DNA of 64,000 nt from Vagococcus fluvialis bH819 (lineage in GTDB: Bacteria; Bacillota; Bacilli; Lactobacillales; Vagococcaceae), in NCBI RefSeq assembly GCF_900163795.1, contig NZ_FWFD01000009.1, positions 248,001 through 312,000 on the forward strand. Direction: 5' to 3'. A program made the position numbers and the translations under genes. How positions within the stretch are numbered: position 1 is the first letter of the stretch; every line of letters starts with the position of its first letter. The notes beneath the pieces are model-generated. The model was given only the letters and a program-made list of their open reading frames with translations, did no database searches and had not been told where the DNA came from. This document shows, piece by piece, positions 33,251 to 57,953 of this stretch.

Positions 33251-33958
33251 TTATTTCAATAATTTAGCAGCTGCTTCATCCACAATAACTATCACATCAG
33301 AATGATTTTGCAATGCACTACCTGGAACATTTTCTGTCACAGGTCCTTGTAAACTATTAAAAATAGCTTCTGCTTTTTTAGTACCATAAGCAAGTAAGAT
33401 AATTTTCTTAGATTGCATAATTGATTTAATTCCCATAGAGTAGGCATGTGTTGGCACATCTTCTTTTTTAGCAAAATTACGGCTGTTCGCAGCAATTGTT
33501 GATTCAGTTAATTTTACTTTACTCGTTGTTCCTTCAAATGAAGACCCTGGCTCATTAAAACCAATATGAGCATTTTCACCAATCCCTAAAATTTGGATAT
33601 CAATTGGATTTTCTGCTATTACTCGATCATAACGTTCACATTCTTTTTTTGCATCTGTTACTGTGCCGTCTGGTAAATAATTAGTTTTAAAAGGTTTTGC
33701 CTCAAATAAATGTTTCTTCATAAAATAATGATAGCTTTGATCGTTATCAGATACTAAACCAACATACTCATCCAAATTTACTGAATTCATCTCAGTGAAA
33801 TCTAAATCACTTGCTACGATTTCCTGATATAACGTTTCTGGAGTACTACCTGTTGCTAATCCAAAGGTTTTTACATTTCCAGTCATCATTTCATTCTTAA
33901 TGATATCAAAAGCAACTTTTCCACCTTCAGCTTCATTCTTTACAGTTATTATTTTCAT
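33251..33958 (-). CDS. nagB: Glucosamine-6-phosphate deaminase
   Basis: Converts glucosamine-6-phosphate to fructose-6-phosphate and ammonia, 235 aa, the short form that lacks the allosteric extension of the E. coli enzyme. Visible motifs are [23 protein letters not shown] (catalytic Asp) and [18 protein letters not shown]. The start [13 protein letters not shown] follows GGAGGG. It opposes the reaction of glmS at 35894-37702. A NagR-like operator overlaps its promoter. No nagA lies next to it in the window. Confidence 0.96.
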
Positions 33959-33977
33959 AAGGATACCCTCCGTATTT

Positions 33978-34019
33978 TTGGTATAGTCCAATTATACATC
34001 CTTTATTCATCAAAAACAA
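33978..34019 (-). promoter_or_regulatory. nagB promoter with NagR-like operator
   Basis: Minus-strand -35 TTGTTT (34014-34019), 17-bp spacer, -10 TATAAT (33991-33996). TTGGTATAGTCCAA (plus-strand 33978-33991) has TTGG/CCAA arms and resembles the GntR-type NagR operator, recalled as ATTGGTATAGACCAAT. It covers the region just after the -10, fitting repression relieved by amino sugars. Confidence 0.65.
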
Positions 34020-34027
34020 GGGTACAG

Positions 34028-35599
34028 CTATTTTTTTGCTTCCATTTTTTCTATTTTAAATTCTCTGTTTGACAACTTCTGAACAAAATAACGATCATGA
34101 CTAACTAGGATTAAAGTGCCATTAAAGCTTATTAACTGTTCTTCTAACCATTCACGTGTCTCAATATCTAAATGATTAGTCGGTTCATCTAAAATCAAAC
34201 AGTTGATTGGCTGATTCATTAGGCACGCCAGTTCCAACCTCACTTTTTCACCACCACTTAAATTAACTACCTTTTTAAAAACATCGTCTTTGAAAAATTT
34301 GAAATAAGACAAGATTCTTCTAGCATCTTCTTCAAAAACCTCCACATGATTTTTAAAATAGTCAAGTACTGTTTGATTTTCCTCATTATACAAAATAACT
34401 TGTGACAAATAACCTATTTCAACGCTATTACCTCTTTTTATTTCCCCCGAACTAATTTTCTCGGCACCGATTATTGATTTTATCAACGTTGATTTTCCAG
34501 AACCATTAACACCTGTAATCACCAAGCGATCTTGACGATAAACTATCATGTTAATATTTCTAAGCACTACTTTTTCTTCAAAAGATTTACTCACACCAAC
34601 TAACTGAATGACTTCTTTTCCTGAGCGTCTTCTTTCTTTGAATCCTTGACTTGAAGAAATATTATTTGTCTTTTGAGGAGAGTCTACTTTGTCCATTTTT
34701 TCTAATTGTGATTCTAATCGTTTAGCTTTTTTAAAATGTTTCTCATCATCGCTAATTGCTCCCCAATGCCTAAATCTTCTAATAGCCTCTTCTGTTTGTT
34801 TAATTTCTTTTTGTTGAATCAAATAATTTTTTTGTTGCTCAATTAATTCTAATTCTCTAAGTTCTTTAAATTTTGTATAGTTTCCAATATAATTCGTTAT
34901 TTTTTTCTGATCAATCAATAATACGCAATCAGCAACTTTATCTAGAAAATAACGATCATGAGAAACAATAATAACTGTTTGTTTACAATATTTCAAATGA
35001 TTTTCTAACCAATTAAGACCTTCCTCATCCAAATGATTAGTCGGTTCATCTAGCAATAAAATTTCGTTGTTTTCTAGTAAACAACGAGCTAACTTAGCTA
35101 ATGTTTGCTGTCCGCCACTCAGTTCAGAAATCCCATGATATAATAGCGATTCAATTCTTAATCCTGTAGCTATACTTTTAATCATCTCTTCAATAACATA
35201 ACCATCTTTTTCCATGAATTTCTCTTGAATTTCACCATAGCGGTTCATAATTTTCTCAAAGTTAGTTTCTTCTGGATCTGATAATCTTTTTTCTAAAGTT
35301 GTTAGTTGAATTGCCATCTCTTTAATTTCTTTTTGACCATTATAAATGTAATCGTAAACTGTTTCTTCTGCAGTAACAATGCTATGCTGTTCTAAGTAAC
35401 TTATTTGCTGATTTTTAGAGATTGAAATAGACCCACTATCTACTCCTTCTATTCCAGCAATAATCTTTAGTAGTGTGGACTTACCACTTCCATTTGCCCC
35501 AACTAACGCTATTTTTTGACCATCATTTATTTGTTCTGTTACATCGTTGAATAACAAATTTCCAAACATCGTTTTAGTTACTTGATTTATTTGCAACAT
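34028..35599 (-). CDS. ABC-F ATPase, antibiotic-resistance/ribosome-protection type
   Basis: Soluble twin-ATPase of 523 aa with no membrane segments. Domain 1 has Walker A GANGSGKST, signature LSGGQQTLAKLA and DEPTNHLD; domain 2 has GVNGSGKST, LSGGEKVRLELA and again DEPTNHLD. The linker (about residues 240-320) is long and charged (EAIRRFRHWGAISDDEKHFKKAKRL), the part that reaches the ribosomal P-site region in ABC-F proteins. The start MLQINQVTK follows AGAGG. A leader with a 40-codon ORF and a terminator precedes it, as in inducible resistance ABC-F genes (Lsa, Vga, Msr, VmlR). Drug spectrum cannot be told from sequence. Confidence 0.85.
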   Translation of the reverse strand: MLQINQVTKTMFGNLLFNDVTEQINDGQKIALVGANGSGKSTLLKIIAGIEGVDSGSISISKNQQISYLEQHSIVTAEETVYDYIYNGQKEIKEMAIQLTTLEKRLSDPEETNFEKIMNRYGEIQEKFMEKDGYVIEEMIKSIATGLRIESLLYHGISELSGGQQTLAKLARCLLENNEILLLDEPTNHLDEEGLNWLENHLKYCKQTVIIVSHDRYFLDKVADCVLLIDQKKITNYIGNYTKFKELRELELIEQQKNYLIQQKEIKQTEEAIRRFRHWGAISDDEKHFKKAKRLESQLEKMDKVDSPQKTNNISSSQGFKERRRSGKEVIQLVGVSKSFEEKVVLRNINMIVYRQDRLVITGVNGSGKSTLIKSIIGAEKISSGEIKRGNSVEIGYLSQVILYNEENQTVLDYFKNHVEVFEEDARRILSYFKFFKDDVFKKVVNLSGGEKVRLELACLMNQPINCLILDEPTNHLDIETREWLEEQLISFNGTLILVSHDRYFVQKLSNREFKIEKMEAKK

Positions 35600-35627
35600 A
35601 TTATTTTCCTCTTTCTTAACCACTGAG

Positions 35628-35665
35628 AAAAAAAGAGACCGTAGATAATCAAAATCTACGACCTC
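35628..35665 (-). terminator. Leader terminator (attenuator) in front of the ABC-F gene
   Basis: Minus-strand RNA stem of 12 bp (arms 35654-35665 and 35635-35646, two G-U pairs) followed by seven U, about 28 bases before the ABC-F ATG and downstream of the leader ORF. It should end most transcripts unless an alternative fold forms. Confidence 0.85.
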
Positions 35666-35816
35666 GTTATTTAACTTGATAAAAAGCTTCTCATAAAATG
35701 GCCGTTTTCATATATTTTTATTAAATTTAGACACACTAATCCAATTTATTAAAAATACGGAAATAATTGCACGACAAAGGTACAAGAACTTTAATTCAGT
35801 TTTGTTATTTAACTTG
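35666..35816 (-). repeat. 13-nt direct repeat in the ABC-F leader
   Basis: GTTATTTAACTTG (plus strand) occurs exactly at 35666-35678, directly 5' of the terminator stem in the transcript, and at 35804-35816, inside codons 5-9 of the leader ORF. Two copies at these positions could compete for one pairing partner or ribosome position. Confidence 0.7.
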
Positions 35817-35830
35817 TCTATGCAAACCAT
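35708..35830 (-). CDS. Leader peptide ORF (40 aa) upstream of the ABC-F gene
   Basis: Starts MVCIDKLNNKTELKFLYLCR and ends in WISVSKFNKNI. AGAGGTG lies eight bases before the ATG, a good ribosome binding site. It lies between an extended -10 promoter and the attenuator. No homologue is recognised. The position suggests a translated leader whose ribosome stalling under ribosome-targeting drugs would change folding of the downstream terminator (known logic for several resistance genes; inferred here). Confidence 0.6.
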   Translation of the reverse strand: MVCIDKLNNKTELKFLYLCRAIISVFLINWISVSKFNKNI

Positions 35831-35863
35831 TGAATGATCACCTCTTTCATTTTTTATTTATTC

Positions 35864-35872
35864 AGTATAGCA
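35864..35872 (-). promoter_or_regulatory. Promoter of the ABC-F leader transcript
   Basis: Minus-strand extended -10, TGC followed by TATACT (35864-35869). The -35 position (TTTCAT, 35887-35892) is weak and touches the end of glmS. Confidence 0.5.
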
Positions 35873-35893: not shown

Positions 35894-37702
35894 TTATTCA
35901 ACTGTTACACTCTTAGCAAGATTTCTTGGTTTATCAACATCTAAATCACGTTGTAAACTAGCATAGTATGCTAAGAATTGTAATGGAATCACCGTTAATA
36001 ATGGACTGATTAAGCCATGGACATGTGGTAATACAATCGCATCCGTGTCTTTTTCAAATCCTTCAACAGCGATAACTAAGGTTTTAGCTCCACGTGACTC
36101 TACTTCTTTAACGTTACCACGTGTATGGCTTCCCATTTCTTCATTTGAAATAATCGCAACAACCGGTGTATTATCTTCGATTAATGCTATGGTTCCATGT
36201 TTTAATTCTCCAGCTGCAAATCCTTCTGCTTGAATGTAAGAAATTTCTTTTAGTTTTAAAGATCCTTCTAGTGAAACTGCGTAATCTAAACCACGTCCAA
36301 TGTAGAAAGCATTTCTTGTTTCAAAAAAGAAATCTTCACTCAATTTAGCGAAATCTTCTTTCATATCAACCAACGTTTCCATACCTGCAGCAACTATCCC
36401 TAACTCATGAACTAAGTCTAATGCTTGTGCGTAAGCGTTACTTAATTTTTCTCCCATTGCTTTGGCTAAAAAGGCCATAACAGCAATTTGTGATGTGTAT
36501 GCTTTAGTTGAGGCAACGGCAATTTCAGGTCCAGCATGTAATAATAATGTGTGGGTTGCTTCACGTGATAGTGTTGACCCTTTTACGTTAGTGATGGTTA
36601 ATGATGGTAATTTCATAGCATTAACTTTTACCAATACTTGACGGCTATCAGCTGTTTCTCCACTTTGAGTTAAGAAAATGAAGTAAGGTTTTTTAGAAAG
36701 AATCGGCATATCATATCCCATCTCACTTGCTAAATGAATCTCAACTGGAATACCAGTTAACTCTTCAATAATTTTTTTACCAACAATCCCTGCATGCCAG
36801 CTTGTTCCACAACCAACAATATAAATACGGTCACTTGCTGTCATTTCATCTAAAATTGCTGAATCAATGGTACTCTTACCATCTATTGTCATATATTCTT
36901 GAATTAATGTTCTCATAACTGCTGGTTGCTCATCAATTTCTTTGGCCATGTAATGAGGATACAACCCTTTTTCTGCATCATTTGCATCAATTTCAGCTAC
37001 ATAAAAGTCTCTTGAGACTTCTTGATTGTTTACATCTAAAATTGTTACTTGAGTTGCTGTTAAAATAATTCTTTCCCCATCCATAATTTCAACAAAGCGA
37101 TCTGTTTCAGCAATCATTGCTAAAGCATCACTACCTACTAAGTTATAACCATCTGCTAAACCAATTAATAATGGACTTTTATTTTTAGCCAAATAAATTT
37201 TTTGATCATCTTCCACATCGATTAAGGCTAAGGCATATGAACCTTTCACTTCACCTAACATTTTTGTAAAGGCATCTAAAGTTGATAAACCTTGTCTTGA
37301 AAAATAATCAACCACTTCAACGATAATTTCGCTATCAGTGTCGCCTGCTAATGTAATATCTGTTAAATATGTATCTCTTAAAGTTTCATAGTTTTCAATC
37401 ACGCCATTATGAACTAAACCAAAACGACCACTTTTTGCTAAATGAGGATGAGCGTTATTTTCAGTTGGTTGACCATGAGTTGCCCAACGAGTATGCCCAA
37501 TTCCTGTTCCAGCATCTTTTTGATCTGAGACTAAAGCTTCTAATTCAGCCACGCGTCCTGGTGTTTTTGACACATACATGCCCTGTTCATTACTTAGCAT
37601 AATTCCTGCTGAATCATAACCTCGATACTCTAATTTATGTAATCCATTTAATAAAATATTCTTTGTATTTTGACTTCCTACGACTCCAACGATTCCACAC
37701 AT
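35894..37702 (-). CDS. glmS: Glutamine-fructose-6-phosphate aminotransferase (isomerizing)
   Basis: Makes glucosamine-6-phosphate, first step of UDP-GlcNAc and peptidoglycan synthesis; 602 aa. The N-terminal glutaminase starts MCGIVGVVG with Cys2 as nucleophile and has LHKLEYRGYDSAG and GIGHTRWATHG; two SIS domains follow (GCGTSWHAG, LTQSGETADS) and the C-terminus ends DKPRNLAKSVTVE. The mRNA leader carries a glmS ribozyme, giving feedback by glucosamine-6-phosphate, and NagR-like sites lie further upstream. The ribosome binding site is weak (GGATAAT), which is acceptable for a regulated transcript. Confidence 0.97.
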   Translation of the reverse strand: MCGIVGVVGSQNTKNILLNGLHKLEYRGYDSAGIMLSNEQGMYVSKTPGRVAELEALVSDQKDAGTGIGHTRWATHGQPTENNAHPHLAKSGRFGLVHNGVIENYETLRDTYLTDITLAGDTDSEIIVEVVDYFSRQGLSTLDAFTKMLGEVKGSYALALIDVEDDQKIYLAKNKSPLLIGLADGYNLVGSDALAMIAETDRFVEIMDGERIILTATQVTILDVNNQEVSRDFYVAEIDANDAEKGLYPHYMAKEIDEQPAVMRTLIQEYMTIDGKSTIDSAILDEMTASDRIYIVGCGTSWHAGIVGKKIIEELTGIPVEIHLASEMGYDMPILSKKPYFIFLTQSGETADSRQVLVKVNAMKLPSLTITNVKGSTLSREATHTLLLHAGPEIAVASTKAYTSQIAVMAFLAKAMGEKLSNAYAQALDLVHELGIVAAGMETLVDMKEDFAKLSEDFFFETRNAFYIGRGLDYAVSLEGSLKLKEISYIQAEGFAAGELKHGTIALIEDNTPVVAIISNEEMGSHTRGNVKEVESRGAKTLVIAVEGFEKDTDAIVLPHVHGLISPLLTVIPLQFLAYYASLQRDLDVDKPRNLAKSVTVE

Positions 37703-56672: not shown

Positions 56673-57953
56673 CTATTTCTTATCATCAATATATTCTTTT
56701 TTTAGTGCTAAATGTTCTTCGTATGTCTTGGCGTAATATACCTTACCTGTAGTTACATCTGCTAGGAAATAAACAAAGTCATTTGGTTCAGGATTCATTA
56801 CTGCAGAAATGGCTTCTTCACTTGGGTTATTAAATGGTCCAGGCCCTGTTCCTTTATTAACATAAAGATTATAGGGAGATTCAACCTGAGTATCTTTGTT
56901 TGATAAATGAATTTTATGCTCATCCATTGCATACAAGATTGAAATATCAGATTGCAAAGGCATATCAGCTTCTATTCTATTAAAAAAGACTTGTGCAATT
57001 TTTTGTCGATCTTCCTTTAAACTACCTTCTTTTTCAACTAAAGAAGATAACGTAAGTACGTCTTGAACAGTTAATTTTTTTTCTGTAATTCCCTCATAAA
57101 AAGGTGTCATTACTTGATTGGTTTTTACAATCATTTGTTCAATAATATCTTCAAGTGATGTTTCTTTATAGTAGTTATAGGTAGCCGGATATAAGTAACC
57201 TTCTAATCGGTAACGAACATCTTTAGCTTGTTTTGCACTTGTTAATAACTCAGGGTATTTCCCAGCCATTTTGTTAAAGAATTTTTCATCTTCAATAACT
57301 TTCATAAATTCAGCTTTTTTTACATCTGTTTTTTTCTCGAATAATTCAGCAATTTGGTCAATTGAAGAACCTTCTGGTATTGTTATTTTAGCATCTGCTA
57401 GAGCTTCTGGTTCAGAAGTCCCACCTGCTTGCAAATCTTTGGTGATGTCTTCAAGCTTCATATTAGGTGCCATTTGGTAATATCCTGCTTGGAAATCAGC
57501 AATGTTATTCATTTTCACATAATAAGAAAAGACTAAGCCACTTTTAATAATTTTACTCTTTTCTAATACTTGCCCTATTTCTTTACTAGAGCTCCCTATT
57601 GGAATTTCAATTTGAATTAGCTTATCATTACCTGGGTCCAGTGGTTTTAAACTCGATTTAAAGAAACTATAAAAAGAGAACACGGCTACAGCAATAGTGA
57701 TAACTAAAGCTAATGATATAATCAAAACAATCTTTTTCACCATATTATTTTCTTTCTTACGAGAACTATATTTAGCTTGATTGTTTCCTCGAGTTCGTTT
57801 GGGTATTTCCTCTTTAATTTCAGAATTCCCTCTATCTGCTTGCTCTGATTCCGAATCATCTTGTAGCGAATTTAATACGTAATCCTTTAAATCTTTACCT
57901 GACTTGGGACTATCATCTTTTTGGTTAAAATTATCATCTTTATTATTCGTCAA
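56673..57953 (-). CDS. mltG: Endolytic murein transglycosylase MltG (YceG-like)
   Basis: Membrane-anchored enzyme of 426 aa that cuts nascent glycan strands. A 70-residue acidic cytoplasmic tail precedes one membrane helix (IVLIISLALVITIAVAVFSFY). The outside part has a LysM-like subdomain and the catalytic glutamate in LTLSSLVEKEGSLKED, with YNLYVNKGTGPGPFNNPSEEAI near the C-terminus. TTG start, with AGGAGG eight bases upstream. The greA neighbour downstream is a common arrangement. Confidence 0.95.
   Translation of the reverse strand: MTNNKDDNFNQKDDSPKSGKDLKDYVLNSLQDDSESEQADRGNSEIKEEIPKRTRGNNQAKYSSRKKENNMVKKIVLIISLALVITIAVAVFSFYSFFKSSLKPLDPGNDKLIQIEIPIGSSSKEIGQVLEKSKIIKSGLVFSYYVKMNNIADFQAGYYQMAPNMKLEDITKDLQAGGTSEPEALADAKITIPEGSSIDQIAELFEKKTDVKKAEFMKVIEDEKFFNKMAGKYPELLTSAKQAKDVRYRLEGYLYPATYNYYKETSLEDIIEQMIVKTNQVMTPFYEGITEKKLTVQDVLTLSSLVEKEGSLKEDRQKIAQVFFNRIEADMPLQSDISILYAMDEHKIHLSNKDTQVESPYNLYVNKGTGPGPFNNPSEEAISAVMNPEPNDFVYFLADVTTGKVYYAKTYEEHLALKKEYIDDKK

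Follow-up and report, generated by a model that had tools for sequence, protein, structure and literature searches.

The ABC-F gene that lies between glmS and nagB in Vagococcus fluvialis bH819 is probably controlled by a transcription attenuator that senses ribosomes on a leader ORF, probably with a second, translational layer. We analyzed this leader within a 64,000-nt stretch of genomic DNA (the window) and compared it with related loci. Attenuators through which ribosomes control ABC-F genes are already known in general; this class of leader has so far been entered under two separate headings, a small-protein family and an sRNA of Listeria.

According to the proposed mechanism, helix P1 would close over the ribosome binding site (RBS) and start codon of the leader ORF when no drug is present. 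Since P1 then holds the strand ACGGCCAUUUU, the terminator would form and transcription would stop near 35628. A ribosome parked by a drug on the first codons would block the formation of P1, and the freed 3' strand could pair with the 5' arm of the terminator, so that RNA polymerase reads through. In the full-length mRNA, the same strand could pair immediately 5' of the Shine-Dalgarno (SD) sequence of the ABC-F gene (pairing P4), and this would help to expose the SD. Attenuation through leader translation had been proposed in an initial annotation of this DNA. Comparative evidence and the published status of the Listeria RNA rliI now support that proposal well, except for its suggestion that a direct repeat acts as a pairing switch, for which no conserved complement was found.

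Organization of the leader

The leader features were checked base by base, and all of them lie on the minus strand (Table 1). The extended -10 promoter, the leader ORF with its RBS, the 12-bp stem with seven U and the ABC-F gene are found exactly where they had been annotated. The terminator arms GAGGTCGTAGAT (35665-35654) and ATCTACGGTCTC (35646-35635) form 12 pairs, including two G-U pairs, and are followed by the U7 tract at 35634-35628. The predicted fold of the 296-nt leader, a check that the initial annotation had named, beats 199 of 200 shuffles (z -3.0) and includes a hairpin that sequesters the ABC-F SD.

Table 1. Positions of the leader elements and the ABC-F gene in the window
Feature	Position	Strand	Basis or remark
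Extended -10 promoter TGCTATACT	35864..35872	minus	sequence; predicted; shortly past the glmS stop codon
Leader SD GAGGTGATC	35836..35844	minus	sequence; reads GAGGTGA, starting at 35844; within or adjoining P1 5' strand
P1 5' strand (leader RBS/start codon)	35826..35838	minus	RNAalifold, compensatory pair counts, 94-locus duplex test
Leader ORF, 40 aa, RAxF-45 family (MVCIDKLNNKTELKFLYLCRAIISVFLINWISVSKFNKNI)	35708..35830 (ATG 35830, TGA 35708)	minus	NF041642
P2 5' strand (codons 2-6)	35814..35825	minus	4 of the 5 P2 pairs counted vary in a compensatory way
Direct repeat copy 1 (twin AAATAAC motif), codons 5-9	35804..35816	minus	sequence; conserved
P2 3' strand (CRA codons)	35767..35778	minus	pair counts
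TTATTT directly 3' of P2	35761..35766	minus	fits NusG pause motif TTNTTT
P3 hairpin TTGGATTAGTGTGTCTAA	35727..35744	minus	degenerate form of family-wide GGGANNAGTCTGTCC; 96-locus base counts
Antiterminator 5' strand ACGGCC	35700..35705	minus	pairs with 35663-35658
P1 3' strand	35691..35703	minus	alternative partners: terminator arm, region upstream of ABC-F SD
Direct repeat copy 2 (twin AAATAAC motif)	35666..35678	minus	abuts terminator; ATAAC invariant in 18 aligned loci
Intrinsic terminator, 12-bp stem + U7	35628..35665	minus	fold; pairing probability 0.98
Antiterminator 3' strand GGTCGT	35658..35663	minus	inside terminator 5' arm; pairs with ACGGCC
TTCTCA, candidate P4 3' strand	35624..35629	minus	pairs with TGAGAA at 35693-35688; also in SD-sequestering hairpin
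ABC-F gene, 523 aa, two Walker A/B sets	34028..35599 (ATG at 35599)	minus	NF000355 match

The ABC-F gene and its surroundings

On the minus strand, the ABC-F unit is located between glmS (35894-37702) and nagB (33251-33991). The glmS ribozyme (RF00234; 37743-37893, minus strand), 5' of glmS, is the sole Rfam match in the scanned region of the window. The 3' end of glmS also precedes the leader in loci L014 and L016, not in L018. The protein belongs to the ribosomal protection-like ABC-F family NF000355 (437.5 bits, cut-off 380), and it stays under every listed cut-off of the named resistance subfamilies Vga, Lsa, Msr, Sal, OptrA and CplR, with a top score of 312.7 bits (the Sal cut-off is 725). 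A search with the protein against genome contigs returned distant relatives only. The ABC-F proteins tested from related loci likewise match the generic NF000355 model best and none of the named subfamilies, so that a role in resistance is suggested by regulation and family membership.

The leader ORF is a member of the RAxF-45 family

The leader peptide, which the initial annotation had not recognized, matches the NCBIfam family RAxF-45 (NF041642) with 31.7 bits against a curated cut-off of 27. We found no mention of this name in the literature searched. Within the genus, a close homologue of the ABC-F gene occurs in 5 of 14 genomes, and the same five have an RAxF-like leader directly upstream of it. 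Across the class Bacilli, 111 of 399 sampled genomes contain an RAxF match. An ABC-F gene follows just downstream in 95 of the 98 matches inspected, a regularity to which the window conforms. Of the three exceptions (L019, L110, L112), one is a weak false match and two are ErmD-type leaders in front of MFS genes; L097, counted among the 95, also has an ErmD-type leader. Leaders that encode MTHSxRLRFPTLNQ are what we take to be the ErmD/ErmK type.

A phylum-wide sample of 299 genomes, searched at a stricter E-value, gave only three matches, two of them in Bacilli (the genome of the window and one other) and the third outside the class. The leader peptides had no match on plasmids, and the viral contigs searched held no relative; phage matches were discounted, as they were short matches only.

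It is highly improbable that RAxF-45 is in the first place a functional small protein with RNA pairing as a secondary matter. Some selection on the peptide is likely, because the Ala codon differs at its third base (GCG 29, GCA 26, GCC 3, GCT 3). However, in L016, L018, L045 and L050-L053 the downstream RNA element is retained even though the ORF stops prematurely or changes frame, and RAxF-45 nearly always adjoins an ABC-F gene. The protein model covers 35708-35766 (minus strand), a stretch conserved largely at the RNA level (about positions 20-39), and may for this reason misname truncated or frameshifted cases.

Conserved helices

The leader ORF, P1, P2, the P3 element, the complementarity of the antiterminator and the ABC-F linkage are all supported by comparison between loci. 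The initial annotation had made its proposal depend on conservation, and the leader ORF, the P1 pairing and the twin motif are indeed kept in related genomes. P1 pairs the leader RBS and start codon with the strand just 3' of the ORF and shows covariation (for example GUGAAAAAGAAUG with CAUUCUUUUUCAC in L039). Among 94 loci, the native P1 duplex has a mean of -26.1 kcal/mol, compared to -19.1 for cross-locus pairs, a control that includes close relatives and in which only 39% of loci beat 95% of the controls.

In an alignment of 18 leaders from the window's family and Enterococcus, RNAalifold recovered P1 and P2 without guidance. For P1, P2 and P3 together, 86.1% of the cells were paired (77.1% after shuffling, 33-46% when slid), 45 cells were changed on both sides (17.4 in shuffles), and the covariation score was 0.374 (0.220 shuffled, at most 0.157 slid).

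The GGGANNAGTCTGTCC element (P3) is strongly conserved across 96 loci. It acts as nucleic acid, since it is retained where the ORF ends or shifts frame upstream of it. A chance-like match to the P3 pattern lies just 5' of a gcvT-like gene in L144 (at about 1500), probably in another leader. TTTTTT follows the element in Bacillus-type leaders, and TTATTT comes after P2 in the clade of the window. Both sequences conform to TTNTTT, the NusG pause motif described for vmlR (PMC9226507) and in a review (PMC12288461), and RNA polymerase may pause at these T-rich sites.

Antiterminator and ribosome position

In the window, ACGGCC in the region of the P1 3' strand is complementary to GGUCGU of the terminator 5' arm. 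Matched variants of this pairing occur: AUGACC:GGUCAU, ACGACC:GGUCGU, AUGGCC:GGCCAU and ACGGCC:GGUCGU. Several enterococcal relatives lack the antiterminator in this form and may rely on different pairings or have their terminators farther away.

We folded transcripts ending in the terminator loop with the ribosome footprint blocked out. The window antiterminator reached a probability of 0.41-0.86 with the ribosome at codons 1-5 and only 0.01-0.06 when the RNA was free or the ribosome stood at codons 8-35. With the ribosome at codons 1-5, the corresponding values were 0.95-0.98 for L018, 0.89-0.94 for L014, 0.91 for L183 and 0.79-0.95 for L193. Without a ribosome or with one at codons 8-35, none of these five leaders exceeded 0.24. 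The complete terminator was dominant in nearly all cases folded, and in the window it wins at equilibrium even with a ribosome in place (0.82-0.98); antitermination must therefore be decided co-transcriptionally.

The folding pattern favors drugs that halt ribosomes at initiation or on the first codons over stalls at the RAxF codons. For VmlR, lincomycin and pleuromutilins have been reported to stop ribosomes at these positions (PMC9226507). The conservation of the RAxF portion of the peptide is then not fully accounted for, because stalls there are predicted to be non-inducing.

A possible translational layer

P4, in which the P1 3' strand pairs with sequence 5' of the ABC-F SD, was significant in 13 of 13 Listeria/L018 loci and in 12 of 19 loci from the window's family and Enterococcus (the window itself, at z -0.3, was not significant). 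P4 was tested repeatedly with changed test segments: the first family-wide test, on a fixed segment of 45 nt, was negative, and the positive results come from a segment that includes the P4 region.

These P4 results, the SD-sequestering hairpin in the window fold and a staphylococcal plasmid relative (L116) with a similar leader and no obvious U-tract terminator would suit purely translational attenuation, where the leader hides or exposes the ABC-F SD and the terminator-like hairpin is of minor importance. We consider this improbable in view of the U7 terminator in the window, the U-tract terminators in most relatives printed (judged by eye from the sequences, without scoring), the covariation of the antiterminator and the term-seq report for rliI cited in a review (PMC8079631). 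The plasmid locus itself, upstream of an ABC-F gene of Staphylococcus saprophyticus (L116, 1250-1500), has a leader ORF with the P3-like element TTGGTGAAGTCTGTCTTTTTTG and a 10-bp pairing of CTATAAGGAA with TTCCTTATAG near the SD. Transcription attenuation with an additional translational layer is our preferred reading.

The twin motif

The exact 13-nt repeat CAAGTTAAATAAC occurs at 35816-35804 and 35678-35666, in leader codons 5-9 and directly 5' of the terminator stem, as had been annotated. In dinucleotide shuffles, an exact repeat of this length arises within 274 nt with P = 0.0023. In 19 of 19 loci from the window's family and Enterococcus, both positions carry the motif AAAUAACA with the core AAATAAC(A) (0.066 expected from shuffles), where the pattern allows small variants and was picked after the sequences had been seen. 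Both copies were also found in 11 of 12 further enterococcal and family loci, a set biased by the covariance model used to find it, which contains the twin motif. As the loci are related, these counts do not represent independent events. Copy 1 lies 16 or 20 nt past the A of the leader AUG, and copy 2 lies 30-41 nt past the point at which the P1 3' strand starts, in the loci for which this distance was measured. The constraint acts at the nucleotide level, since the two clades read copy 1 in different frames and copy 2 does not code for protein.

The initial annotation had suggested that one complementary strand pairs with either copy of the repeat. The near-fixed positions of two conserved copies would fit such a switch, and UUAUUU (35766-35761) could pair with AAAUAA. 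However, this would be a helix of six A-U pairs, UUAUUU is lost in L115, L141 and L159, and in L013 the copies do not fit it, while the motif stays. We therefore rejected this partner as not conserved; no other conserved complement was seen in related loci, and we regard a repeat-based switch as very unlikely. The strand that changes partners is instead the GGCC/GACC of P1. Two further candidates failed in the same way: relatives do not conserve a second mini-ORF, MRSFLSS in the window, whose end lies in copy 2, and the near-palindrome GUUAAAUAAC, which would allow the copies to pair with each other, is lost in relatives.

The attenuator model leaves the twin AAAUAACA motif unexplained. It is clearly a conserved RNA signal, one for which no reader is known, and the most novel part of this leader. 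It is conceivable, if rather unlikely, that the motif also binds a protein or RNA acting in trans and so adds regulation beyond the ribosome to the attenuator as proposed: conservation at the nucleotide level in two reading frames and a non-coding spacer, and restriction to one lineage group, speak for it, but there is no candidate factor.

Relation to known leaders

Two Listeria loci match Rfam rliI (RF01487; 2.5e-80) across the RAxF leader. In these loci (L120, L114), rliI, listed as a Listeria sRNA, coincides with the RAxF leader ORF and the attenuator; its trans-acting role may be secondary. In one named record of L. monocytogenes, the ABC-F gene lies close to guaB. As summarized in a review (PMC8079631), term-seq identified RliI as a putative conditional terminator of lmo2760. 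This leader resembles that of the window in its RAxF-type leader ORF, P1-like and P4 pairings, terminator and NF000355-type ABC-F gene, but the two sequences have diverged too far for the Rfam model to detect the window, and the Listeria leader lacks the twin motif and is annotated as an sRNA. The rliI covariance model gave no match in the window region (E up to 1) or in L012 (E up to 0.5), so that the homology is indicated by the RAxF profile and by a weak match of the rliI loci to our model R1 (32.7 bits). An R1 match at 56842-57038 of the window lies inside a mltG-like coding sequence and was taken as chance.

Apparently, one switch class extends across many Bacilli, including Listeria rliI, and went unrecognized as such. 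More tentatively, and at somewhat less than even chance, RAxF-45 and rliI may represent a single old class of ribosome-sensing switches for an uncharacterized ABC-F family, to which the enterococci and the window's family added the RNA-level twin AAAUAACA with an unknown partner. The proposed attenuator gives a likely function to RAxF-45, a small-protein family that is named but unexplained, and connects this family with a Listeria RNA that has been annotated as an sRNA acting in trans. In many Bacilli, Listeria and Enterococcus among them, it leads one to expect drug-response genes that are inducible and would otherwise stay hidden.

Leaders of the ErmD/ErmK type have the GGGATNAGTCTGTCCTTTTTT element in common with Bacillus-type RAxF leaders, but encode a short peptide with an RLR motif and precede different genes. 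Such leaders at L142, L145, L146, L149, L150, L110, L112 and L097 share AACGGGATNAGTCTGTCCTTTTTTAATAAT with RAxF and stand in front of MFS, ABC-F, methyltransferase-like and kinase-like genes; the ErmD/ErmK-like leader is a portable module.

The leaders of Listeria rli53-lmo0919 and C. difficile cplR also combine a ribosome-stalling uORF with attenuation of an ABC-F gene, but their uORFs have three codons (PMC8079631, PMC10201436). The vmlR leader of Bacillus subtilis (PMC9226507), compared without alignment, shares these features with the window: a uORF whose RBS is by an anti-antiterminator, an antiterminator, an intrinsic terminator, an SD-sequestering hairpin and an ABC-F target. In the window, as in the vmlR type, the RBS of the uORF is part of a helix whose formation competes with that of the antiterminator, and the 5' arm of the intrinsic terminator pairs with the freed strand. 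The vmlR uORF encodes the tripeptide MIN, whereas the window has the 40-codon RAxF-45 ORF, extra conserved hairpins and the twin motif. The window leader is a case of vmlR-type attenuation with a different, long uORF.
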